Under the pieces are notes generated by a model. It had not been told where the DNA came from. It made no database searches and saw nothing but the letters and a program-made list of their open reading frames with translations. Below, one piece after another: positions 6,209 to 55,805 of a stretch of 64,000 nucleotides of DNA. Every line of letters begins with the position of its first letter. Position 1 is the first letter of the stretch. The stretch lies in the NCBI RefSeq assembly GCF_000340215.1, contig NW_006921537.1, positions 1,887,011 to 1,951,010 on the forward strand, read 5' to 3'. Source of the DNA: Pseudocercospora fijiensis CIRAD86 (Eukaryota; Ascomycota; Dothideomycetes; Mycosphaerellales; Mycosphaerellaceae). The position numbers and the translations under genes are program-made.

Positions 6209-7085
6209 CTACGACGAGCGCCCTACCAAGATCATCATTAGCAAACAGCTTGATCAACGTCTTGTGCACGAAACTCACATTGCTGAATCTCCTGCTCAGA
6301 AAGACGTCTAAGCTTGTTGATAGCTGGTGCCTCTCCCGTGACAATGCCCTTAGCCACCTCGACAGTGCCAGTGATGATGTTCTTCCTGCTGACAGCGTAT
6401 TGAATGGTCTCAGACTTGATCTTGATGAGACCGATCCTTGGATCCTCCGGACCACCGTCGTGCTTTCCGTCACCGAGATCACCCAACCAAGCCTTGAGCG
6501 CTGGAGAGTAGTACTCTCGGACCTTCGCACGATCGGTCTCGACAGTGGCTTTGCCGGAGATGGATGCCCACTCGCCAGCAGAATTGAGAAAACCGAGATT
6601 AATGTCTGGGTTTGCATCGAGATCGTCGGTCTTGCCAGACTCGGTGTTGGTGTGGAAGATGAAATCAACGCCGTTGCCCTCCTGGTCCAATATCAGTATC
6701 GTGATGCTTCAGTCGCTATCTTTGCATGGGCCACGCCTACCTTTGCTGCCAATGCCATGCATCTGCTTGCAAGACGGCCTTGAGCGTTCTTGGTAGTCAT
6801 CATGCAAAACTTGGCCTTGTCGACGAAGTGTACGAGATCGTCAACCTTCTCCTTCAGTGACGGGTCTTGCTCATTCTTTGCGACATATGGGTCGGCGGTC
6901 TCGGAGCCGGTCTTGGTGTTGCTGAAAGACATCTTGGCGGTAGCGGTTTGAAAGGGTGCAGAAAGTGGTCTGGAGTATTGTGTCAGGTTTGAGGTCTGCT
7001 TTGAGAGCTGAACACAAGTGGATGGAAACGTCGCTGATATGCACTTCACTCTAGCAACGCGAGTAGCACTGCGGACAAGGGACAT
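6209..7085 (-). CDS. bli-3: BLI-3-like flavin-binding split-barrel protein (pyridoxamine-phosphate-oxidase-like / general stress protein family)
   Basis: Three exons: 7085-6741, 6681-6279 and 6222-6209, 253 residues. Intron 1 (6682-6740) has GTAGGC donor and CCAG acceptor and restores ALAAK|EGNGVDFIFHTNTE. Intron 2 (6223-6278) has GTGAGT, CTAATGA and TTGGTAG, and gives the short terminal exon ending in WRSS, as in other BLI-3 proteins; without splicing the frame would read into unrelated sequence. Core blocks are FCMMTTKNAQGRLASRCMAL and DFIFHTNTESGKTDDLDANP, the FMN-binding split barrel. BLI-3 was named as a blue-light-induced gene in Neurospora; biochemical role is unclear. The start at 7085 adds a 51-residue basic, mitochondrial-type leader; the Met at 6932 (MSFSNTKTG) is the alternative cytosolic start. 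Confidence 0.88.
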
Positions 7086-11950: not shown

Positions 11951-12323
11951 GGTGAAGTGTGGTGAAGCGTGGTGTCGTCGTATTGGGATGTGGATATGCA
12001 AATGCTGTCGATGTCGATTGGTGCTGTTCTATCGCGTGCGCGAACGCAAAGAAGGAGCTGCTACTAGAGCGGCGAGTGTTGTGACTGCCGACCAGGGCAA
12101 GTGCGAATTTTTGTCTGGTAGAAATGAATGTGATGCCCGAGGTTGGAGGGTGAGAGAGGGTACGAGCGAATGCTCTTGCAGTGTGGCAGCAAGTGTTGTA
12201 AGGAAGGAGAATCGAAGCACCGAGATGGAGAGGAAGAAAAGAAGCAGCGCAGAGTAGTGGTAGTGTGCCATGGCCATGTGCATGCACAAGCGCAGTCGGC
12301 TAGGCGCAAGGATGCATCAGCGT
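11951..12323. promoter_or_regulatory. Upstream region of the GH128 gene
   Basis: About 370 bp between the start of the glucanase gene and the transposon target site. CT/GA-rich as in many fungal promoters; no defined site recognised. The Harbinger-like insertion lies about 375 bp upstream of the start codon and may have replaced or displaced promoter sequence. Confidence 0.4.
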
Positions 12324-12326
12324 TCA

Positions 12327-12352
12327 GGCCCTGTCTACTTGCAACAGGTTAT
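12327..12352 (+). repeat. Left terminal inverted repeat of the Harbinger-like element
   Basis: Identical over 26 bases to the reverse complement of 15853-15878. Preceded by target duplication TCA (12324-12326). Confidence 0.93.
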
Positions 12353-12658
12353 AGCATAACCTGGCCGTAGATTATAACAACTCTTCCAATAACCAACCTG
12401 TCTTATATAACAACGATTATTGAATCGTTGGTTATCGCTGTGCTCGTAAACTCGCTGAGATTATGCTATATATAGTATAATTAGTATAACTAACTCTTAA
12501 GGAGCTTTTAAGCCTATCCGTGCGCTCTATAGACTTCCGGCATAGCGCCGCAGTATCTACCTCTTTCTACGTCTTGTAAAAGGAGCTATATAGCGGTCGA
12601 TAAGGTATAAGGCGGCGGAGGTAAAGAATAAGGTACAATAGAGCGATTATTAGCGGTC

Positions 12659-13860
12659 GTGTTATCGGTAAGCGCTATTGCTAGCACGATACCGTTATTA
12701 CTCGAAGAACTACCTAAATTGCGCCGCCGTACGATATATCGACTACTAGGACGAAGGTCGGTTCAAATAGACCGTAATAAGATAGAAAGCGAGGCATTTC
12801 GAGTGCTATATAGTCTGCCGAAGTACTATTACAAGCGTACGAGGTTAAAGCAACCGGTATTGCGCGCGTTAGTAGAAGAGCTGCGGAAGAATAGTTTAGA
12901 AGGCAAGAATAGGAACAAATACTCTATTAAGTTACGAGTTATCCTTTTCCTTATTATAGTCGGATATAATAGGAGCCTTAGCAACCTTGCTAACGACTTT
13001 AGTATAGCAAGAGAGACACTACGAAGGATAATCTATACCGTGTCGCGCTGTTTGTATCGTATAGCGAAGGAATAGATTAAATTGCTACGAAAGGACGATA
13101 AACCGCTATAGTCTAAGAGTGCCGATAGAGGCAAGTTCTAGCTATATTTTAAGGGCGTTATCGGCGCTATCGACGGCACCTTGTTAATAGCTAGTCTACC
13201 GAAGATTAACAGCAATCTATAGCGTTGTCGGAAGGGCTATATTATATAGAATGTAATAGCCGCCTACGACTCGTCTTTGCGCTTCTTATATATAATACCT
13301 AGATACGAAGGGTTAGTAACGGATAGCACTATATTAAGGAAGGCCTATTAGTTAGGCTTCGACGTACTAGATAGCTACTTCTATCTTACGGACGGTAGAT
13401 ATTCCTTTAAAGATCTACGGCTCTTAGTGCTATATTAGAAGACACGATATTACCTTTGTAAGTAAAGCGAGGCGGAAGAACGACCGACTAATTATCGAGA
13501 GATTTATAACCTCCGCTATGCTTAGCTTCGTAACTATATCGAGAGGGTGTTTAGTATTATAAACAGGCGGTTTAGGCTTATTAAAGAGGGACTAAATAGC
13601 TAGTCGATTACCTAACAAAGTCGCTTTATCGTCGCCTGTTATATTATTTATAACTTTATCCTATCTAATAGTCGATAACCGCTGTCTTTAGAGCTAGGTC
13701 TCCTTCTAACTAACGCTAAATTAAATGCCGCTCGAGAGGCCGATACGACGGCTAAGGTTTACGTCGATAATAGGCGCTACGCCGAAGAGGTTAAGGATAA
13801 AAGTTACGCTAATTATCGTAATAGAATAGCGAGGTAGATGTATACTAAATATAACGGTAA
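12659..13860 (+). pseudogene. Decayed Harbinger-like DDE transposase (DDE_Tnp_4)
   Basis: One frame can be followed from about 12659, open to 13075 and then interrupted by about a dozen stops that are almost all TAG. Landmarks of DDE_Tnp_4: N-terminal helix-turn-helix region (YSIKLRVILFLIIVGYNRSL, then SIARETLRRII); first Asp in GVIGAIDGTLL (near 13155); second Asp in GLVTDSTILRKAY (near 13315), where the usual HDS is now TDS; and final Glu in LRNYIERVFSIINRRFRLIK (near 13535). Trp and Gln positions are the ones turned into TAG. It cannot make a functional protein. Confidence 0.85.
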
Positions 13861-14329
13861 TTAGTTAAGAACTGGACTTAATATAAGGGCTTAAAAGCAG
13901 GAGGTGCTACTTAGAGTACGGCGAAGGATGTAATAGGGTTTAGTAGATAGTTATAGAATACAAAGGCTATAGCCGGGGTTTAGCTTTTAGTAAGAAACTT
14001 AGTGTAGATTCGAATTCTAGGCTTAAATCGTGCATTTAAGGAACATTACTATCGCCTCTTCCGCGGATAGGCTCTTCTCTAGTCGAAATTATAGTAGGGT
14101 TGAATTCGTAGGTTCTTAGTAAACTTCTACGATACTAGAGTTTAGGTTAATAGGGCATAGCTTTTTTTTATATAATAGCACCCCGCACGTAACTACATTT
14201 TGCTAGTAAAAATTAATAACACCTCTACACAAATCAATAGTATAGCCGTTAGCGTGCATTTACACTGAAATTCTATCCTAATCTACGAATTCTCGCATCG
14301 AATAGCACTAAATATATACTTCTTCTGCT

Positions 14330-15620
14330 ATTTCTAATTATTGTTATTAACAACAACCTATTGCCTATATCCTAATAGTACGTATCTACCTTCTATCTGT
14401 TGCAGATATATATTCTAACGGATATTAGACTTAATGTCCGTTAATACAGATAGGAAGTACTCCTTAAACTGCTCCTAGTTTATACTCGAAGCGACCTTAT
14501 AATAGTTAAATTCCCCGTTCTTCTTTGCGACCTCGCGTACTAATAATATACGATTAGCTATCGGTATGTCTATATTCTTGAACGTCTTCTTATCTAGCAG
14601 CCGCTTTGTAACGTTACTAACGACTAAACTAGCCTTAGTAGCGGCTAGCGCATTAGCGCGTTGCTCGTCCGCTAGTTTCTTCGCTAAAGTACGTTCTTCC
14701 TTGCTATCCTTTACTACCTCCGCGACTATTAATACTATCGGCTCGAAGACCTTCTATAACGACTTTACAATAGTTAGATTCTTCTCGTTTATATCCTCCG
14801 CCTTCTTATAAACCCGATCGGCCTCCTTCTGCATCTTCTTTTAATGCTTTTCCGCCGCTTTAGTAGCGCGCAATACTATTAATTGCTCTTCTGTAAAGGG
14901 CGCGGAAGCCGCGCCTTCCGCCGTAACCTTAACCTCCGATTCCTTACCCTTACTACCCTTATCCTCGCTTTCTTTACCGAGGGCCTCGTTAGTCGCTATA
15001 TAATCGCCTATAGCTACCTCTAAGCCGATTAATTCGTCTATAATATCGAAGTGCTCTAGCAATTTATTACAGAAGGGAGTATACCTTAGATTCTCGTCGA
15101 AATAGGCGTCTTCTACGTCCGACTCGGCGGTTAGAGGCATACTATTCTAGCTACTTATATGCTTTAGGTAAGTAATCTATATACTCTAGTCCTTCTTAAT
15201 TGACGACTACTTATTCTTTAGGTAGTCCGTAGTGCGCTCGGTACTATATTTCTTATTTATTAACGTAGCTAGGTCTCGGAGATTACCTAACTAGAAGTTA
15301 TTAGTATCGGTGCTACGGCTAATCTTCTTAAACTCGTTTAACTAGTCGAGGAAGTACTCGGTCTACTCTTAAGTCTACTATTGTAGCGCTTTACGCTGCC
15401 TATCTTTATTAATAGGTGTTGTAGTCGCCGCACGCTTCCGAGTCGCCTTTGCCTTTAATAAAGAAGGTATCTTTAATAAAGCCTAAGAGGGCTAAGAATC
15501 CGTCGATTAAGAGACTATATTTGCTAGTATTCGAATAGCTTTAAACTAAGAGACTAGCTGCTCGACTAACCGTATATTTATATAGTAACTATACTACAAA
15601 CTACACTCGCCGAAGCACTC
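14330..15620 (-). pseudogene. Decayed second gene of the Harbinger-like element, Myb/SANT-like DNA-binding protein
   Basis: The minus-strand frame read down from about 15,440 contains LNEFKKISRSTDTNNF, a TAG, then LGNLRDLATLINKKYSTERT and TDYLKNK-stop-SSIKKD. The stops fall where Trp/Gln are expected in a Myb/SANT trihelix ('W...L..L...F..K.W..IKK'). It continues into an acidic segment, open over 14841-15140 (DVEDAYFDENLRYTPFCNKL), and an Ala/Lys-rich coiled coil down to about 14,350. Such a protein normally pairs with the Harbinger transposase to bring it to the element ends. Interrupted by many TAG codons. Confidence 0.65.
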
Positions 15621-15852
15621 GTCCTCCCTGCCCTTTGCCTGTCGATTTACTACCTACTACGCTGTTATCGATATTATTATAATAAATACTACTAGAAGCT
15701 ATATAGCCTACTATAAAGAGGTAGAGTGTAGCTGCTGAGCCGGAGGCTTATTATGTGGGTCTTAACACCTGGCACTGTCTCATAGATAACCGATTATAAG
15801 TCGCCATAATCTGAGCCGCTTATGAGGTTATTATAATCTCTCGGTTTACGCC

Positions 15853-15878
15853 ATAACCTGTTGCAAGTAGACAGGGCC
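15853..15878 (-). repeat. Right terminal inverted repeat of the Harbinger-like element
   Basis: Reverse complement of the left repeat, followed by TCA at 15879-15881. Confidence 0.93.
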
Positions 15879-17484
15879 TCAGGAGATGATGCCTTTCTGG
15901 CGCTGGCAGAGACGTGGCCGCTGTGGGCCTTCAGCAGTGCGTGCGTCGTTGCGTTTCATGCTGTCCGTGTGTCGTTGGCCACGCAAGCGATTGCCACCGA
16001 AGCGAAGATGAACGGAGCGACGCAGCAGCAGCGTCAGCAAAACGTCGAATGATTGAAGGGCGACAGACCCACCTCTCGCCGGCGTCTGCTGTGTGCCTGT
16101 GAGATCGCCCGACCATCTCTCCTGTTAGGCTGTTCCTGGCAGACTGCTCCATTTTTTCCGCTGGCGACTCGACGCTATCAAGAAGAGCCTCGCACCGATG
16201 TGGACCTCCGTTGACGTTGATGTCGCGCGATGTGATTGGTCTCCCCGGGGAAATGAACGAGATGAAACGCTCAGTCAAGTCAGCCTCCTCGCCCATCACC
16301 CGGCGCGGTTTCGCGTGCAAGCCAAACGCCTTTTGCAGAACAAGTGTGCATCGGAATGCACGAGGTCGTTGCGATGCGGTGTGATGAAGATGCGCTTCGG
16401 TTCGCGGTGTGAAAGCACAGCCTGCCCTGCCTGCCCTACGAGACGAACTCAGACTCGCGCAGACTACTGCATGCTCCATCTCTGAGACTGCCGCCGAACG
16501 GTACAGTGTGCCATGAACAACTCCGCACCTTCTGGAGTCGCCTCGGCATCCTGAGCCAAGCGCATGAACACTCAGCATCTTGCGCTTGCCGCCGCTTTCT
16601 TCCTTCCTGCGGCAACATCTACGACTGTACAGTGTACCGAAAAGAAGTCTGCTTCGCCAGACAGTAGTGCTCCGAGACATCTTGATGCAAGGCGTTCGCC
16701 TCTTGCAGAACAAGTGTGCAACCCATCCGAGACACTTGTGAACACCATCACATGCCTCTCCATGATGACAGCCACGTTGGTCAATTCCAATGCACCTATT
16801 ATTGCAAATTCAGCTGATCAGCAGAAGTCATCCAAGCGAGCTAGAGGTAACCTGTGATAAGAACACCACTCCAGCCTTTCTTCTTCTTGACCGCCTTGAC
16901 ATTTGACTCGCTACGACTGAAACACCCACGTGTAACCAAAAAGCAACATTATCGCAAACCTGCTTTGAAGTCGAACATGCATGCATGCATAACGAGAGCG
17001 AGACTCGGGAACCAGGAACACAAAAATCCGAAAGACATCATCGTGCGCCCAGATCAGTGCAAAGGCCAACTGCTGAGAGAAAAGTGATAAGCCAATATAT
17101 ATTGGTGTGCGCAGCGGGTGCTGAGACACACATGTCCAGCGTCAAATATTTCATCACAGCGCTTTCGAGGTTCCAACACACTCGCTCGAACCATCTCGAT
17201 TCGTCAAGCACACTCAACAAGAACTTCCGTGCTCGTGCCAGCGCAGCACTTGTTAACAATGAATTCATTCATCTTCCCTGGGGTATCTAGCTGATGTAGT
17301 GCCTTCCTCAACCAGCTACGTTCCTGATGCTACAGGTACATCACATTCCCAAAGCGCCTTCGCTGCCGTGCTCCTCCCATGGCCATGCTTTTCGCTCGTG
17401 CCGTAAATGCTGTGCGTCGAGTATCGTAACACATCTCCACTTCGTCTTCCTCAAACGCCATTCCCAATGCATCCAAAAAACCAC
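15879..17484. other. Host intergenic region right of the transposon
   Basis: About 1.6 kb of normal-composition host DNA. It contains a weak small-secreted-protein candidate (16564-16857) and an 18-bp exact direct repeat at 16333-16350 and 16703-16720 (TTGCAGAACAAGTGTGCA). Other frames are short or overlapping. Confidence 0.5.
16564..16857 (+). CDS. Possible small secreted protein (97 residues), unproven
   Basis: The frame opens with a signal-peptide-like start (MNTQHLALAAAFFLPAATST), followed by a short polar protein with three Cys and an ARR dibasic site. It ends Lys/Arg-rich. No homologous family is recognised. It lies near a transposon in a gene-poor stretch, a setting where fungal effector genes are often found, but overlapping frames of similar size on the other strand make a chance frame quite possible. 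Confidence 0.25.
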   Translation: MNTQHLALAAAFFLPAATSTTVQCTEKKSASPDSSAPRHLDARRSPLAEQVCNPSETLVNTITCLSMMTATLVNSNAPIIANSADQQKSSKRARGNL

Positions 17485-45851: not shown

Positions 45852-45859
45852 AATAATAC
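45852..45859 (+). repeat. Target-site duplication, left copy
   Basis: AATAATAC directly before the hAT end; identical copy at 55798-55805 directly after it. Confidence 0.92.
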
Positions 45860-46045
45860 TAGACCCCGCAGTGGTTCGGGTTGGTTTGGTTTGGTTTGCT
45901 AAGCCGAAACTCTAGTTTGGTTTAGGTTGGTTTGCTAAGCAACTATATAAGTAGCTGGTTCGAACTATATAATTTATCGGTTTTTAAGAAGTGTACGAAT
46001 GTATACGTAGCTTCAAGCAAGCCCTTTGTAAGACTTAGCAGTGTA

Positions 46046-46063
46046 GCCGGCAGCGTAGCCGGC
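46046..46063. repeat. GCCGGC cluster (period 12)
   Basis: Two copies of GTAGCCGGCA 12 bp apart, followed by TTTTTAGTCCTTAGTACT; a near-identical arrangement recurs at 46880-46950 on the other side of the plus-strand ORF. Confidence 0.7.
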
Positions 46064-46291
46064 ATTTTTAGTCCTTAGTACTTATAGAATTTTCGAATCC
46101 TACTTAGGCTACGTAGTTGTATAAAGGTACTTATATAACCTCAAATCTATAGACAATTAGCTAAGGGCACTAACCAATTAAAAGTATACATATACATACA
46201 CAAGGCATTATAGTTTAGTTCGGAAACTGCACTCCTTAGGTATGAATTTCATCCTTTCGTTTACGGTTCAATTCCCTAACTGCTTAGTAGA

Positions 46292-46823
46292 ATGTCTTTA
46301 TCTAGATCTAGGCAGAACTCATCGATTTCCCTAGAAGTCCTCCTCCTTAAGAAGTTTATGCACTTTCCTACCGAACTATTCGATAACATTAAGTACTAGG
46401 ATAGCTCCTCCCTCGGTATCGGTATAGTATATAAAAGAGCTATAAGGCAGCTCTGTAGAACGTTCTACTAGTCACTCGCTATACTAAGGCCGAATGCTAG
46501 TTCGTTCCTTAGAACTCTTAGTTATTTAGGAGATATAAAGGGTAGGGTAGGTAGTAACTTCGTATTATATAAGGAGGTAGAGGCTGCTATAGAAGAGGCC
46601 TTCAACCTGTAGAAGATAGTGAAAGATATAGAGGCAGCTACAGGTCTAGGTACCCAGTTGAATTTTTAGTAGGTAGAGTATAAGGATATTTAGAGGGAGT
46701 ATTAGGTAGAGTTGCGAAGGCAGGTGTATAATATGCTCTAGAAAACAGGGATAGTGCCTATAACTATAACTATTAGGCTCTTCAACCTTCCTTATTTTTC
46801 CCTGTTTTCTTTTTATAAAAATC
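46292..46823 (+). pseudogene. Unknown cargo ORF of the hAT element
   Basis: From ATG 46292 a frame of about 175 codons reads with eight or so TAG stops to TAA near 46,821. The start is clear (MSLSRSRQNSSISLEVLLLK), followed by FMHFPTELFDNIK, a helical region AIRQLCRTFY, LAILRPNASSFLRTLSYLGD and VLYKEVEAAIEEAFNL. Mostly alpha-helical, basic N-terminus. No family recognised. It runs opposite to all other genes of the element and is flanked by two similar GCCGGC clusters, which may lie in UTR introns. Confidence 0.45.
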
Positions 46824-46900
46824 TAAACTAATACAAATCAACCGGAATGTCTATCTTCTTTTAGTTCTTTGAAAAACCTAGCAGCGTAGCTAGTAGCGTA

Positions 46901-46930
46901 GCCGGCAGCGTAGCCGGCAGCGTAGCCGGC
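46901..46930. repeat. GCCGGC cluster, three copies, period 12
   Basis: GTAGCCGGCAGC repeated; copies of GCCGGC at 46901, 46913 and 46925. Confidence 0.8.
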
Positions 46931-47155
46931 CTTTTTACTCCTTAGTACTAACGGGATTTTGGGAGACTTCTATTCCGTACGGCCAATAAAGCATACTATA
47001 CTATGTATATATGCTTAGAGAGTATTTAGAGCGCGGTATATAGCGCCGTATAACAGCGGCTCATTTCGTATATAGAAAAGCTTGTAGATAACACTACGAA
47101 CATCCTTTCTACTAGAACATCTATCCTACTTAGCACCGTCTCGAATATAGACATT

Positions 47156-47855
47156 CTAGCCTTTTAGAATCTAATCGAGTGCTTTGAAATCCTTATCTAT
47201 AATCGTTATACGCTTCGCGTAGATAGCTATAAGGTTGACCGCTAAAATAGTATTAGCATAGTCCGAAAAGAGGTAGAAGAGAAATATACATTCGAAGATA
47301 CGAACTAGGTAGGCTTCTATAGCCTCTTAAAGGGCGCCTATCGCGGAGGCTTAGAAGCGAAGGTCCGTTCTATAATCCTAGGCAATTTCGCGAACAAGTC
47401 GTTAGAAAGGAGTTTTGCGGATTAGGAGCTAAGAACTCTTCTAATACTGCCGAATCTTACGGAGGGCTACGGCTAAAGAAGGATTAGTAAAAAGATAGTA
47501 AGAATGCCGGCTACGCTGCCGGCTACGCTGCCGGCTACGCTACCGGCTATAAATAGGACTTACTTCCTAGGCGCTATCGACGCTTCGTACGATTGCTACT
47601 AGTAGCAGAAGCGCTAGTTGTCGTCTTATATAGAGCCTTGCCCGCCGTTGTCTTACGCGGAGCCTTGCCCGCCGTTGTCTTACGCGGAGCCTTGCTCGCG
47701 ACGCCCTTTCTAGCACCGGAGCTAGCGGCAGTAGTAGTAGCTATCTTACGTTAATGTACTATACTCGTTCTACTATTTCCGATCTTGTTGCGACCCGTAG
47801 AAGTAGTAGGTCCCTTCTTGTAAGGCGTCGTAACTTAGTTAAGTAGACTCGCTAT
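47156..47855 (-). pseudogene. Histone H3-like gene A of the hAT element, H3-tail-like repeats, RIP-damaged
   Basis: Three exons: about 47855-47564, 47472-47290 and 47241-47156. Intron 1 (47473-47563, GTAAGT...ACTAATC...CTTTAG) holds four GCCGGC copies; intron 2 (47242-47289, GTATAT...GCTAAT...TTTTAG) is 48 bp. The histone fold is unmistakable: TVALRKIRQYQKSS, LLIRKTPF, RLVREIA and DYRTDLRF, EAIEAYLVRIFES|VNLIAIYAKRITIIDKDFK, matching H3 helices alphaN to alpha3 in order. The tail has KAPRKTTAGKAPRKTTAGKA, a tandem version of the H3 GGKAPRK block. Stops are TAG/TAA at Gln-like positions. The start is probably ATA 47853-47855, an ATG altered by C-to-T change; this is inferred. The last stop may also be mutational. 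Confidence 0.82.
47473..47563 (-). other. Intron of H3-like gene A containing a GCCGGC cluster
   Basis: GTAAGT donor, four GCCGGC copies at 47515-47548 spaced 12 bp, TTACTAATC branch region and TTCTTTAG acceptor. Splicing restores G-T-VALRKIR exactly as in histone H3. Confidence 0.8.
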
Positions 47856-48065
47856 TATAAAAGTCGTCGAATTGAGGAAAAAAGTGCGTTACGAAGGTGT
47901 ACGAAGGCGCGCGCGGAGCGAGGGTATTGCGGAGGTAGTAGATATAGAGCGTAGAGGTATAGGTATCGATACGAAGGTTGAATATAGCGGTAGTATCGCG
48001 GTATCGCTAGGCAATAGAGTAAGCTTCGCGCAAGCCTATATTATAGTAACGTTAGAGCAAGGAAA

Positions 48066-48118
48066 GAAGGCAGGTACGGCTGAAAAAGGCAGGTACGGCT
48101 AAAAAAGGCAGGTACGGC
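48066..48118 (+). repeat. Three tandem copies of a ~20-bp unit upstream of H3-like gene A
   Basis: AAGGCAGGTACGGCTGAAAA repeated three times with few changes, about 210 bp upstream of the presumed start of gene A. Possible promoter repeat; further GCCGGC copies follow at 48134, 48147 and 48186. Confidence 0.7.
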
Positions 48119-48399
48119 AGACTTTGAAATATAGCCGGCATATATAGCCGGCATAGTAATAGGCGAAAGCCTCCTTTTAATGAATAGCCGGCGTGATAAT
48201 AGTATCCTACTATAGTATAGATATTCTTTAGTAATGCCTTTACTAGCTATAGTAATCTTATAAGTAACCTAGGCCTATTGCTAGTAAATATAAGAAATAT
48301 CAGGTAGGCTATACTAAACAAGCTAGTTATTTAGCAGGAAAAGGCCTACTACCGTCTCTATATGCCGGCTACGATAGCCGGCTACGAGTGCCGGCTATC

Positions 48400-49430
48400 G
48401 CTCTAAATTCAACTCCGCCCTATCTCGGAGGCTAAGGTACCGAGCGGAAACCCTATAGCTTATATTCACTCGGTTGTCGCGGAGCGCTTACAGGTAAGGT
48501 ATTAGAAAAGAGTATAAAAAGTACGAGAAGAGTATCCTAGGATATAGGTCGTAAGTGAATAAGAGTAGCACGCCTAGTTATTTATATAGTACGTTACTCT
48601 ATACGACTAAGAGCCTATATTATCTCGTGCTTCGCTTGTAAGACCTCGACTCTACTAATATACTATTATTCTCCTGCTCGGTCGCTATCTCAAATCTTCT
48701 TCGAGTTGCCGGACTTAGTGCGCATCTATAGCTATGTAATAGCGCTACGTATTATAGAGAATCAACTCCGCCGTATCTCGAAGGCTAAGGTACCGAGCGG
48801 AAATCCTATAGCTTATATTCACTCGGTTATCGCGGAGCGATTATAGGTAAGGTATTAGAAAAGAGTATAAAAAGTACGACAAGAGCATCCTAGGATATAG
48901 GTCGTAAGTGAATAAGAGTAGCACGCCTAGTTATTTATATAGTACGTTACTCTATACGACTAAGAGCCTATATTATCTTGTGCTTCGCTTATAAGACCTC
49001 GACTCTACTAGTATACTATCGATCTCCTCCTCGGTCGCTAATACGCTGTCTCAATTCTTCTTCGAGTTGCCGGACTTAGTGCGCATCTATAGCTATGCAA
49101 TAGCGCTACGCATTATAGAGAATTTCTCGTTAAAGTTTCTCTCTCGCAGGCTTGCTATCTACCTCGTAGTATAGAGGATTAAAGTGCTAATGCTAAAGAA
49201 TCTCCTTATAGTTAGGATGCTAGGGCTCCTTAGGACCTTTGTATTTTGGGTCTAAATAGAGACGTATTATAAACGTTCTATCGCCCTTTCGCTTACTACC
49301 CGCTAGGTCGCGATATACGAAGAAACTAATCTGAATATAGCTCGTCTCTATAAGAGCTAGGTGAATATAGAGCGCTAGGTTTCTACTTCGTACCTTAGAT
49401 TTAGGGACGGCGCGGAGATAAAATTAGAAA
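48400..49430 (-). pseudogene. Unknown ORF of the hAT element
   Basis: A minus-strand frame from about 49,420 reads AVPKSKVRSRNLALYIHLAL, IQISFFVYRDLAGSKRKGDR, TFIIRLYLDPKYKGPKE and PLYYEVDSKPARERL, then enters the tandem duplication with RQLEEELRQRISDRGGDR. Family not recognised; the block 'DLAGSKRKGDRTFIIRLYLD' is compact and basic. The 3' part lies in the duplicated segment 48411-49124, so the gene end is uncertain. A GCCGGC pair sits at 49434-49457 near the 5' end. Confidence 0.35.
48411..49124. repeat. Direct tandem duplication of about 355 bp
   Basis: Copy 1 48411-48763, copy 2 48764-49124, beginning AACTCCGCC and ending ATTATAGAGAAT. They differ by scattered single bases and a few small indels. 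Both lie between the two H3-like genes. Confidence 0.9.
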
Positions 49431-49513
49431 TGTAGCCGGCACCTATAGCCGGTAAAAGGATGCGAAAATGGGCCTCCTCCTAGGTTAATCTAACGACTAA
49501 ATACAATTTCCAA

Positions 49514-50155
49514 CTAATCCGCTATAAACCGACGCCGAATTTTAGCTAGAAGCTGTATATCTTTATTTTGAAGAGTAACCCGCTTCGTATAGATAGCAAG
49601 GAGGTTTAAAAGCTTAAGCTCGGTTACGAGAAATGCCTCCGTAGCTTCCTAAAGAGTACTAATCGCCTTAGCCGTAAATCGTATACTAGACCGAAAATCT
49701 AATGTAATTTCTCGGACGAGTCGCTAGAAGGGAGTCTTAGGGATTAAAAGCTCGGTCCCTCTTTTGTTTTAGAAAAGCCGGATCTAGCGAAGGGCAATAG
49801 TACCTAGTTTAAAGCGCCGCTTCTTTGTCGTCGAGTCCTGCCTTATTCCCTTTCTTTTAATAGAAAGATAACTTTTCTTCGCGACAGTCTTCGTCCGCCT
49901 ACTCTTTTTAGCCTTCTCCTATCTACCTATAGCCTTCTTGTTTTTCGGTACTATTTTCCGAGGAACCCCCTTCTTTCGTATATACTACGGAGAGCCTTAC
50001 TCTTCCGATATCTCGTTCTCGCTGCGGTCTCCCTATGCTTAGCTTGCTTTACCCTTACCCTTTAGCCTCTAAAGATATTTATCTACGCGTTTAGGCGACG
50101 AGGGCATATCGGTAGGACCTAGAAAATTAATAAGTATATAATCGTAGGGAGACAT
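49514..50155 (-). pseudogene. Histone H3-like gene B of the hAT element, long basic tail, RIP-damaged
   Basis: A single exon, exactly 214 codons from ATG 50155 (second ATG at 50107) to TAG 49514, with no frameshift but about ten in-frame TAG. Tail of about 110 residues, Lys/Arg-rich (KKGVPRKIVPKNKKAIGR, EKAKKSRRTKTVAKKSYLS). Then a full H3 fold: KKRRFKLGTIALR, IRLF, TELLIPKTPF, RLVREITLDFRSSIRFTAKA, EATEAFLVTELKLLNLLAIY, TKRVTLQNKDIQLLAKIRRR. Order, spacing and the LVREI / KRVTL / KDIQLL blocks are those of H3 and CENP-A type histones. The loop 1 and alpha2 regions diverge from both, and it differs strongly from gene A, so the two are not a recent duplicate. It cannot be expressed as full-length protein in this copy. 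Confidence 0.85.
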
Positions 50156-51814
50156 TAATGCTTCTTGCCTTCTAGAACAAATAGTCTTCTATTAAACCGC
50201 CTTATTAGGTCATCGTCAGATTCGAATAAAGGATAGTAGCTTAAGGAAGGGGAGGCAGCCGGCTTAGGAAGGCCCGAAGAGCCGAATCCTTAAGGCATAT
50301 TTGTCTTTAAGAATATAGGGAAAGGGAAGAAGGAGAGGAAGAGCGAATAGAGAATTAGAAATAGTCCGTAGGTAAGCGGGGTCGGTTGCTATAGTAACTA
50401 GTCTGTTTGGGTCCTAGGAATTCGAAACACATTTCGGACATATGCCGGCTATATACGCCGGCTATATTACCTTATATGTAAACGCTTCGTCTCCTTAAAG
50501 CTGCTCTAAGCCTATATACGTTTCCGCTTCTCGACCCGGTATCGCCTTCTACCTCCGCCCTCCTCCTCTTCGTTATCGCTAATTAGGGTTTCGCTTAGAC
50601 TAAATTTCGCATTCTCTTCGCGCTCCTAGGTTTCTTCGATCTTAAGGTTTTCTAATTCCTCGATTAACTCCTTTAGTATAATCTTTAGTAACCTACCTTA
50701 GCGATTCTAGTAGAGGAGATAGTATCGGAATACTATAATAGATTCGAAGGTAGTAGGCGAGTATATTCGATTAAAGCGGCCCTAGTAACGAGCGATACTA
50801 AAAGACCTCTTATAGCCTATGCCTACGCTCGGGATAGCGAGGACGTCCCGAGCGACCGACGCTATCGTTAGAAACTTAGGCTCTAACCGCTGCTATATAG
50901 CGAGAATATCGTCTCCGAATTCGTCTAGAAGACCGGTAAGATCTAGAGATTATTAGCCCTCTTTCCGAGCCTACGGGTTTGTACTTACTCGCGTGCCGAT
51001 AGAGATCGAACTCTTCCTTATTCACTTTAGTAGTTGCTTCCTCTTCTGCCTCTACTTCCTACCTACGAAACAGGTATAATGTCGGAGCCTTCTAAACCTT
51101 CTTTTTCTTTATAGGAGCTGCATTTAGACTAGTTTCTTTCCGACGCTCGTAGAACATCTTTTCTAGAATAGTCTAGTAATGCTTCGGCTATACCTCGTCC
51201 GCCTTCTATTCCGGCCTCTGCTAGTATATATCCTTTTCTACCGGGTTAAGCAAGTACGTAACGCTATAGATATCCCCGAACGAGTCAAAGGTAGCACTAT
51301 AATATTTATGCAACTTAGTATAGGAGGTGTCTATAGCTTTCGTTATAGCTACTTTCTAGGGAACGCTCTTCTTAGCTAGCTTAGCTGCGGTTTCCTCGAG
51401 CTCGTTAAAGAGCTAGTTATAGTACGTAAAGACAAGGTGGATCGTCGGTCCTCGGGTTCTTCTAATCGTAGCAGTAACCTTCGCGTAATACTTACTAATA
51501 TCGACGAGATACTCTACTTAGCGCTATTCGGCGGCGGTAAGGCTAAGCTACTTAATACCCTCGGAACTCTAATAGATCTCGAGAGCGGTACGTAAAGTAT
51601 ATCCCCTCGTAACTATATAGAAAGTCGAATCGAACCGGGTCTTAACGTCTTAGGTAAAACGGAGTAGGCGCTAAGGAGGCCGCTTTTGCTATCGCTTATT
51701 CTATACGATATTCTAGGCATCGGTTTTAGGGCGCTCGATTAGGTTCTTTTGAATAGCCTCGAATCGGTTATATCTCTATAAGCTCGAGTTCGTATATATT
51801 GCTAGACGACGAAG

Positions 51815-51883
51815 CTAGAGAAAAAGAGTTAGAACTATACTAGGTTGCCGGCTATAGGTGCCGGCTACGGACAAAAGTTATAC
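51815..51883 (-). other. Predicted transposase intron with GCCGGC pair
   Basis: GTATAA donor, two GCCGGC copies, TTCTAACTC branch region and TTTCTCTAG acceptor, 69 bp. Confidence 0.65.
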
Positions 51884-52817
51884 CTTATACAAAACGAGAG
51901 CGAGGCTCTCTGCCTTATCCCGTCTTATTGCTACAATAAGTTTCTCGACTTTCGACTTTGCTTTATCCTTATCTAGGATCTTCTGTTAGTCGTCGTTTAA
52001 TAGTACAATTTTAAGCGTCTTAAAGAGGGCTCGGATCGCGATTTGAACTATATAAGCGAGGTAGGGAAACTTCTATAGGGATGTAACTAGCAACGACGTC
52101 GGCTCCGATTTAATAGGGCTAGGGCTATTAATAGGCTCCTCTTTATCGTTATTATCGTACGTATTGTCGTGCGTATCCGGAATCGTAGCGAGCTTAACAT
52201 TCGGAAGATTAAGCTAGATTGTAGACCTTGTAATCTCCTCTACGCACTCGACCCTATCGATATAATTAGTGATTTCAAAGACATATGCGAGTGAATTGTA
52301 TATACAACGCCTTATATAATGTTCGATTATTACTAGCGTTGTCCGCAGTAATCGAGATTAGTTTCGTTATTACGCTAACCCTATCTATTGCCGTATAGAC
52401 AAGCTTCGCTATGTCCTTACTAGTATAGGAACCTAGAATTTTAGGGAATCCGATTATAAGTTCCTAGAGTTTCTAATCCGAATTGATAAAGTATAGTATA
52501 ATCGAGAGGAAGGAGGCTCTTATAGTCCGGCTTAACTAGCTATCGACAGTAATAGCTACTCGGCGAGTATTACGGAGGATCTCCCGAATGTCGTCTAACG
52601 TAGCCTCTTTGTTCTTTTCGAACATAACACGCTAGGTTGTCGCGCCGAGAAATAGGGGAGGGTAGTTTGTAAGACATAGGTATATCTTCTATATAGACTC
52701 CCTTTCGTAGAAGTCTTCCGGAAGACCGTTTGTAGCTAGCATTTCGTTTGCTAGTTGCTTAAAGTCTTCGGGGGAGAAATCGGTAGCCTTCAATCCTAGA
52801 GCTTCCTTAAGCGTAGC

Positions 52818-52918
52818 CTATAATAATTAGCTAGATCTCTACGGTTGATTTAGGTAGCCGGAATCTATAGCCGGTAGCTGTAGCCGGCAGCTATAGCCGG
52901 CATTTTAGAAGACATACC
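52818..52918 (-). other. Predicted transposase intron with GCCGGC-type cluster
   Basis: GTATGT donor, four GCCGGC-like copies directly after it, GCTAATTATT branch region and TATAG acceptor, 101 bp. Confidence 0.7.
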
Positions 52919-53829
52919 TCTTTCTAGAACGCTATATCTATATTAACTCTCCTCTCTCCTTAAGATTCCCGATACCGTTTAGAATAGAGATAGTTCGTAG
53001 GCGATAAGTTCCTATCCCCTAGTTTCGGGTATTTTAAGATTGAACCGCAGAAGTTGTAGACAATTACTAGTTAACCTTTGAGTCGAGAAGTCGTATAACG
53101 GTGCAATGCCCCCTCTATAAAGAACTTCTAGAATGTATCCGTTCGCTCCTTACTCCCCTATCGCATCGAGTACTTCCGGAGTTTACACTCCTTCGAACGT
53201 AAGTATAAAGGGAACTATATCTTATAGACCTATTAATTGAACTGCTCTATATACTCGGGTTTCTAAAGATACGCCTAGCTAGCCTTTTCGAAGATTTCCG
53301 GGTTAATACTCGATGTTCTTATATCTCCGAACAACCTTCTACTTAGACTCCGTAAAGGTAAGGACTAGGTAGTAGTACCCTATAATGAATTCCTACTACT
53401 AGGATTCGGAGAGGATGAATCTAGCCCTAATCGTCGTCTAGGACTCGATAGGCTCGAAGGTAAGTATACGACCTCCTCTCGACGTTGTCGCAATCTCGCT
53501 CGTATACTAGACTGTTTCGACTATCGTCTCGTTATTACCCTTCCTAGTATAGCGCCTAGTATATATACAATGTCGGTCGGCATATTTTAAGGTTTCGTAC
53601 GGTAAGGTAAGGACTTAGGAGTAGTAGATATATACTAGTAGCTGTAGAGAAACACCCTTTCTTTTATAGCATCGTATCGTTAGGAACAGCTAGGTAGTAA
53701 ATAGCTAGCTACCTTTTTTTTTTGTTTCCCAGCTACCTAACTACTAGATTTTTTTTCCTAGCTACCCTAGCTAGCCTAACTACTAGAATTTCTTTCCTAG
53801 CTACCCTAACTACCTGAATTTTGCCTTCT

Positions 53830-55200
53830 ATACGGCGGCTCTCTCCTACTAACGGAACCGAGCTACTATACCTAACGAATCTAAGCTCGTTTTTAGTCTC
53901 AATCTATCCTCTTTCGGTATAAGACACTCGATAAGCAAATGCTTAGGCCGAGTCTGACCACGAAACCTAAGACTAACTAACAGCTCTATTAACTAATCCT
54001 GATCCTCGAACTCCTTCCGCTTCTTAGTAAAGATCTTAAAGAGCGCTCGAGCTTCTTCGGGTGCCTACGGAGTAGTTGAGATAAAGCCGTATCGCTGAAA
54101 TAGGTAATCCTTCGGAGGCTTATATAGAGATTTAGAGAATTCCAACGCTAACCTATCCTACTAGTAGCTTAGATTCCGGATATAAGCCCTCTCTACCTTA
54201 GTAAAGATTTCATATAGCAGTAGCACTCTGCCTTCGAGAAACGCTTTCTGTTTAACTGTTAGTATCTACTAGCTACGAACGCCGGCTACATATGCCGAGC
54301 ATAGAATAATTACCTGTACCCCTTCCTCCTATAGTAACACTTCTGCCGTCCCTAGATACCTAGCCCCGATCGCATTAATCGCAAGCTACTTTGCCTTTAT
54401 AGACGCAAAGGCTTCGCTCTAATACTGATAAAGAAACTTCCACTCTATATCGAGGATATAAAGACGACTAGTCTCGATTCTAATCCTTGCTAGCTTTTCG
54501 TAGTAGCTTTAACTATAATTTTCTAGATTGATAGGACTTATACCTTAGCCCTTTACTAGTATCTCGTCTCTTTAACTATGCTCGATCTACTCCTAGCGCT
54601 TATCGTCTATAGCGTTAGGCCCTAAGACTACACCTATTACTAGATCGACGTATAGTATCTCCTCGCTTTTTTTAGTTCCTTCATTCGTAGTATTAAGCTC
54701 TATCGCGGCATCCTAAACTCTAGCATTGTTATTCTCGGCTATCTAAACATCTCCGTTACTATCGGTCGTATCGATAGAGGTAGCGACTATAGGTCTAAAT
54801 GCTATTAGTTAACGTGTTAAAGAAAAATATACCGGCTATAGCTACCGGCTACGGCTGCCGGCTACAGCTGCTAGCTACGGCCGCTAGCTAGATTGACTTA
54901 CGCTACTAGAACTTTACGCTCGAAAACTGGCCGCAATTCTTTCCTCCTCTTAGCCTTCTCTTAGGTTGTCTTCTTATTCTAACCTTTACTTTTTTCTATA
55001 GGCGCTAGCTATCGATAGAATGCCTTATTCCGCGCCTTTCTTCTCTTATCCTTAGCTCTTTTATCCTTATCTATCTTGTCCTTTCTCTCGCGGTCTCGTA
55101 CGGAATTCTTCTTCGTAGAGTACTCCTCTTTAGTCTTACGCTTTTTAGTTAGACGCTTAGGCAAAACAAACTCGCGGTCTTTAGTTCTATCTTCTGTTTA
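53830..55200 (-). pseudogene. Unknown basic protein gene of the hAT element, RIP-damaged
   Basis: First exon (about 55.2-54.9 kb) is very basic: PKRLTKKRKTKEEYSTKKNS, RDRERKDKIDKDKRAKDKRR. Two well-formed introns, 54795-54901 (GTAAGT...TTAACTAAT...TTTAG) and 54256-54313 (GTAATT...ACTAAC...AG), both hold GCCGGC-like copies. The downstream exons read LARIRIETSRLYILDIEWKF, AKQLAINAIGARYLGTAEVL, KQKAFLEGRVLLLYEIFTKV and EFEDQD.LIELLVSLRFRGQ. Nuclear-targeted, helical; no family recognised. It could be a separate gene or, less likely, an N-terminal extension of the transposase. Confidence 0.45.
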
Positions 55201-55373
55201 GCGCGCGGCGCGCTTCTCTCTTGCTATTATAAGGGAAAGGGGCGGGGGCGTAGCGTATAGTAGTTGTTATCGGTATAGGTATAGAGGAAGAAGTTGAAAG
55301 TGTAAGAATATCGCGAAGCCCTAATTGTTACCGCCTACGTAACGTTATATAGGTAAGCTTTCGCAACTACGGC

Positions 55374-55661
55374 AACTACGCCCCGGCAACAGCAACTACG
55401 CCCTAGCAACGGCAACTACGCCCTAGCAACGGCAACCACGCCCTAGCAACGGTAATAAAGCGTAGTAAATACAACCTAGTAACTATTATAGCCGGCAATC
55501 GTAGCCGGCAGTCGAATAAGAGTGTCCTTATAGCAAAACCACGCCCTAGCAACGGCAACCACGCCCTAGCAACGGTAAAAGAGCGTAGTAAATGTAACAG
55601 AGTTACTATTATAGCCGGCAATCGTAGCCGGCAGTCGAATAAGAGTGTCCTTATAGTAAAA
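55374..55661. repeat. 20-bp minisatellite and a ~123-bp tandem duplication near the right hAT end
   Basis: CAACTACGCCCTAGCAACGG is repeated about four times at 55374-55453, and again about twice at 55539-55576. The segment containing the last unit plus a GCCGGC pair is duplicated with a period of about 123 bp. Subterminal position suggests transposase-binding repeats. Confidence 0.8.
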
Positions 55662-55797
55662 CTAATACAGTCTCTAGTTCAAACTAGGAATCTATATAGT
55701 TCGAAAAAACCAAACCGGAACTAGGGAGCTAGTTCGCCGCTAAGAAACCAAACTATATACGTTTGGTGGTTCGGAAACCGAACTACTGCGGGGTCTA

Positions 55798-55805
55798 AAT
55801 AATAC
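55798..55805 (+). repeat. Target-site duplication, right copy
   Basis: AATAATAC, identical to 45852-45859. Confidence 0.92.

Follow-up and report, generated by a model that had tools for sequence, protein, structure and literature searches.

The analyzed window comprises 64,000 nucleotides of Pseudocercospora fijiensis CIRAD86 (contig NW_006921537.1) and contains a DNA transposon with two genes resembling histone H3. The question raised by this locus is whether these genes belonged to the transposon as working parts or were carried in it as passengers. The element in the window was found to be a copy of a hAT transposon that occurs hundreds of times and has two H3-like genes, here termed gene A and gene B. 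Both were likely resident protein-coding genes, with a presumed role in chromatin, before they were inactivated by repeat-induced point mutation (RIP). The probability of this explanation as a whole is estimated at about 0.7.

The element extends from position 45860 to 55797 (9938 bp). Its inverted ends are TAGACCCCGCAGTRGTTCGG, with TAGACCCCGCAGTGGTTCGG at 45860 and TAGACCCCGCAGTAGTTCGG on the reverse strand at 55797, and AATAATAC flanks it on both sides (Table 1). Short terminal inverted repeats (here 20 bp) and a target site duplication (TSD) of 8 bp are traits of the hAT superfamily, and the clean ends and perfect duplication described in the sequence-only reading of this locus were confirmed. 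Allowing at most one mismatch, the end pattern was found at 425 + 417 = 842 places in 73.9 Mb, and the reversed control pattern at 0 + 0. All facing pairs of ends 9.3-10.0 kb apart among the places listed, which lie on contigs 1 and 2 only, were taken as sister elements (n = 19), resulting in a total of 20 full-length copies including the window element. The sisters measure 9.4-10.0 kb. The TSD was perfect in 17 of the 18 testable sisters; one copy (L014) has no TSD, and another (L019) was excluded since its flanks were cut too short. A pair of ends 5.2 kb apart (L028) encloses neither H3 gene and has no TSD, and shares 1.5 kb and one end with the element.

Table 1. Coordinates of the features of the H3-carrying element, given as positions in the window.
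Feature	Position	Strand	Remarks
Target site duplication, left (AATAATAC)	45852..45859	.	Perfect, 8 bp
Left terminal inverted repeat	45860..45879	+	20 bp
Gene A, H3-like, broken by stops	47156..47854	-	Pfam Histone 76.6 bits; 29 copies compared
Predicted 48-nt intron, gene A core (= published 16-residue insertion)	47242..47289	-	CTAAT, TTAG and length 48 in 29/29
Predicted 91-nt intron, gene A tail/core border	47473..47563	-	One codon away from host intron 2 and in its phase
Gene B, H3-like, without introns, interrupted by stops	49514..50155	-	Pfam Histone 85.6 bits; Met codons at 50155 and 50107
Weak hAT dimerisation-region match	50791..50910 (about)	-	E 0.14, below cut-off
hAT transposase gene stretch, broken	52317..52589	-	33% over 93 residues to L033
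Right terminal inverted repeat	55778..55797	-	20 bp
Target site duplication, right (AATAATAC)	55798..55805	.	Perfect, 8 bp

The transposase is the weakest part of the hAT identification and is only weakly recognizable. The Dimer_Tnp_hAT profile match remained below the cut-off in the element and in a further copy (L009, E 0.17). Similarity to L033, an almost uninterrupted hAT transposase reading frame found elsewhere in this genome (Dimer_Tnp_hAT E 1.5e-13), was detected on the minus strand of all 20 elements with 30-34% identity over 88-144 residues. The DUF659 domain was matched 21 times in the genome, none of them inside the window element, and three of the DUF659 loci showed no similarity to the element.

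Both minus-strand genes had been read as following the H3 fold. With the stops read through, the two frames scored well above the cut-off of 26.4 bits for the Pfam Histone profile PF00125 (E 2.5e-21 for gene A and 4.2e-24 for gene B), and the best 60 of 176 matches to solved structures (X at stops) were all H3 for both genes. The profile and the structures agree on an H3 fold that spans alphaN through alpha3. In the core, 53 of 81 residues of gene A and 48 of 88 residues of gene B are identical to the host H3. Beyond what had been noticed before, numerous stops interrupt both frames; the gene-B sequences compared (n = 46) contain 8-14 stops each. Of the 772 candidates from the histone search, 150 were scored, and among these only two were free of stops, namely the host H3 (L001) and a CenH3-like host gene (L064; contig 5, 606604), the latter split by an intron.

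The damage carries the mark of RIP, which is a high TpA/ApT ratio. In bins of 2 kb this ratio was 1.54-2.60 from 28 kb to the end of the window and 0.41-0.61 elsewhere, with two exceptions: the bin of 26-28 kb gave 1.00, and a block at 12-16 kb gave 1.58 and 1.66. This block (12001-16000) is an isolated RIP-marked stretch amid stretches without the mark. RIP produces transitions, for example G-to-A; therefore only transversions were used for the selection tests described below.

An H3-carrying hAT element is already in print, and the previous statement that no hAT was known to encode H3 has been overtaken by two reports (Manning 2013, PMC3538342; Dhillon 2019, PMC6710886). For P. fijiensis (74 Mb), 471 hAT elements were described that together contain 784 H3-like sequences; 133 of these elements measure 9.5-9.9 kb, with 20-bp ends and 8-bp TSDs (Dhillon 2019). 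One or two H3-like copies were reported per element, one of them with 16 extra residues; all extra copies were RIP-inactivated, and the original H3 was located on scaffold 6. The element analyzed here agrees with this description in length, ends, TSD, copy number, the two H3-like genes, the 16 residues and RIP, and a single intact H3 was found on contig 6. The window element therefore probably belongs to the published family, as matched via its description. DUF659, which was reported in that family, was not found in the element here. The result was restated in one sentence in 2026 (PMC13041039); besides the two reports, the literature searched comprised just reviews, citing papers and unrelated ones. 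New in this study are the intron reading of gene A, the persistence of both genes in three subfamilies and the transversion-only selection tests.

According to the published reading, the hAT element captured a transcript or retrocopy of the host H3, which was an unused passenger and was destroyed by RIP. The authors inferred transcript capture from missing introns (Dhillon 2019, PMC6710886). Gene B, which is continuous through both intron places of gene A described below, fits this argument and could be a transcript copy. Further in line with passive capture are the stops in every gene-B sequence compared and the lack of detectable constraint on gene B and on the tail of gene A. The intron signals of gene A speak against an absence of introns there, and the persistence of both genes in three subfamilies likewise differs from the published picture.

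Gene A was compared in 29 copies (the window, 19 sisters and nine further loci), using a search expression that demanded the branch-like and AG letters but not the donors. Two segments with the signals of introns were identified in 29/29 copies. The shorter one has the donor GTATRT in 10/29 and ATATRT in 19/29 copies, a G-to-A change of RIP type; exact patterns at its border were counted 93 times with GTAT and 194 times with ATAT. The longer segment starts with GTAAGT and ends with TTAG in 29/29 copies, and contains CTAAT in 28/29 and CTAGT in 1/29. Its length ranges between 67 and 116 nt and is no multiple of 3 in 26/29 copies. When both segments are omitted, a core of exactly host length results, reading FE-SV-NLIAIYAKR across one border compared to FE-DT-NLCAIHAKR in the host, and LG-T-VALR compared to PG-T-VALR across the other. 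These signals and the exact host length across the borders favor the explanation as resident genes. Translated, the 48 nt correspond to the 16 residues published as an insertion, and the "16 AA insertion" of gene A is thus most likely an intron of 48 nt. No mention of introns in gene A was found in the article texts searched. In view of the two predicted introns, the ancestor of gene A likely had introns itself, unless these were acquired after the capture; judged from these signals, it is probably not a captured transcript.

The nine further loci had been chosen by a gene-B hit, and gene A adjoins gene B in all of them. Two group with the window (subfamily 1, SF1), two form SF2 and five SF3. 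The DNA identity was 88.7-88.8% (gene B) and 83-84% (gene A) for SF2, and 78-80% (gene B) and 79-80% (gene A) for SF3. The exact element end was present in one SF2 locus, and in the other, 261 bp of the left region are preserved but its outermost 47 bp are missing; no end was found at the expected distance in the two SF3 loci examined. Both genes are thus kept in three subfamilies. Their occurrence in all 19 sister copies, together with the transposase stretch, and side by side in 9/9 loci of three subfamilies favors residence in the element, as the sequence-only reading had proposed.

Insertions and deletions of gene B downstream of the second Met point in the same direction. Those common to at least two copies measure 3, 6, 12 and 21 nt, all in-frame, whereas the three found in single copies measure 1 nt each; this tally leaves out two gaps upstream of the second Met (12 and 1 nt). 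The gaps in the gene A tail are all multiples of 3 as well, which is partly due to 27-nt unit repeats. Omega was determined from transversions only, with raw P values and with three subfamily comparisons that share data. For the gene A core it was 0.56 (P 0.36; SF1-SF2), 0.21 (P 0.006; SF1-SF3) and 0.34 (P 0.024; SF2-SF3). The core is thus constrained in two of the three comparisons, which supports protein-coding resident genes, and the third counts against them, as does the lack of constraint elsewhere. In the same order of comparisons, omega was 0.72, 0.48 and 0.54 for the whole of gene A (P 0.30, 0.029 and 0.086), 0.96, 1.49 and 0.91 for its tail, based on few events, and 1.13, 0.89 and 0.84 for gene B, based on 14-23 events and none significant. 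Shifted-frame controls ranged between 0.56 and 1.79, and none was significant. Measured against the intron-like segments, the constrained core and the in-frame shared indels, passive capture of both genes is considered unlikely.

A different view of gene A would be that neither segment is an intron and that a histone which is odd or in decay received two insertions, one of a minisatellite and one of 16 residues. The longer segment indeed has a minisatellite of GCCGGC type, which is found elsewhere in the element. The 48-nt segment is in frame, constant in length and without transversions between subfamilies, as might be expected of a coding stretch. Between subfamilies, transversions were counted at 0 of 48 positions of the shorter and 1-4 of 69-90 positions of the longer predicted intron; the corresponding count for the core exons is 3-20 of 86-183. 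The predicted introns are therefore less changed than the exons, which counts against the preferred explanation, since neutral introns beside conserved exons would not be expected to change less than those exons. On the other hand, canonical donor, branch and acceptor motifs are present, the core has exactly host length without both segments, and the longer segment is frame-breaking in 26/29 copies, whereas all tail gaps are multiples of 3. An origin of the segments as insertions is therefore regarded as improbable. A separate, nested insertion of the H3 genes in the window copy alone is refuted, with next to no probability left, by the presence of both genes at matching places in 19/19 other full-length copies.

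The tree of H3 sequences (90 columns) is weakly resolved, and more than half of its inner branches (38 of 62) are open. The gene A sequences of the different subfamilies join in a single clade (support 100), as do those of gene B (support 99), which favors their persistence as resident genes. Both genes fall outside the set of 18 rows that includes the host CenH3 (support 89), and host H3 and host CenH3 are both separated from them by a weak fork (support 81). The genes were thus placed neither with CenH3 nor with the host H3, so that the tree gives no demonstration of descent from the H3 of this host. The suggestion that the element might use its histones at centromeres was not supported, and a reading of the genes as centromeric histones was rejected: the solved structures matched are H3, and loop 1 of both genes has the length of host H3 and not the longer form typical of CenH3/CENP-A. 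The best hit of gene B was a metagenomic protein (P0001), which groups with gene B in the tree (support 89); the two have an insert of 2 residues and a C-terminal AKxRRRF in common. The identity to gene B was 52/91 for P0001 and 48/85 for the host H3; since the host H3 is equally close, no further conclusion was built on this protein. A protein search with P0001 was swamped by other H3 proteins, and a search with the gene A core as query gave no candidate.

Under the preferred explanation, gene A, with one predicted intron beside the host intron-2 site, would descend from an intron-bearing gene. While the element was active, the transposase would have moved it, and genes A and B would have been expressed. 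The divergent H3 variants they encode would have been incorporated into nucleosomes at the element or close to it, and silencing of the element would have become weaker, until RIP broke both genes. That the products of these resident genes entered host chromatin is likely. Any such role in this genome belongs to the past, because every gene-B sequence compared is broken. A function of the proteins in hindering silencing is considered somewhat less likely than not. General loss of the lysine-9 context was rejected as the mechanism of reduced silencing: the gene tails of the window copy lack the TARKS of the host, yet the gene A tail of SF3 has SRKST.

The explanation is also favored by the hAT element of Pyrenophora tritici-repentis, for which transcripts of an H3-like gene (H3L) were found (Manning 2013, PMC3538342). 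This element measures 5.6 or 2.3 kb and occurs in 26 near-identical copies. It is likewise a hAT element with an H3-like gene in a Dothideomycete, but has one gene that is little mutated, whereas the element analyzed here has two that are riddled with stops. A comparison of the P. fijiensis and the Pyrenophora H3-hAT elements revealed no similarity between them (Dhillon 2019). A hAT lineage may, as a more speculative extension, have kept its own pair of H3 variants, only one of which bears introns, as functional accessory genes through the subfamily split, hindering silencing, with the Pyrenophora element as a second, independent case. Pack-MULEs and other transduplicating DNA transposons also hold host coding sequence between their ends, namely captured genes of many kinds or fragments of them (PMC8616336, PMC3538342); here, in contrast, each of the 19 full-length sister copies has the same two H3-like genes next to the remains of a transposase. 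Should gene A indeed bear introns and have diversified with the transposon, the published passenger transcript becomes a transposon owning histone variants, with consequences for the view of how mobile DNA and chromatin-based silencing interact.

Further observations concern the remaining sequence of the element. The gene-B pattern, with one mismatch allowed, occurred 326 times. A tandem duplication of ~356 bp lies between genes A and B at about 48408-49122 and probably explains much of the length gap between copies of about 9.55 kb and 9.93 kb. GCCGGC motifs were counted at 28 places in the element (for example 46046, 47506-47530, 54857 and 55627), often in arrays of 10-13 nt, and several of them fall within the larger predicted intron of gene A. 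Their density is 2.8 per kb in the element, and three further stretches of the window have 0-0.26 per kb. The Rfam search of the whole window gave 0 matches. Two elements of 373 bp (L065, contig 1:8853279-8853651; L066, contig 2:581713-582085) have the ends of the large element and are flanked by perfect 8-bp TSDs; their similarity to the large element is confined to the outer 61-97 bp. They are likely small non-autonomous relatives; at least four such pairs of ends occur among the places listed, of which two were read. A small relative seems to be nested in one full-length copy (L015), because facing ends 373 bp apart were found inside it at about 6420-6792, where they break its transposase stretch.
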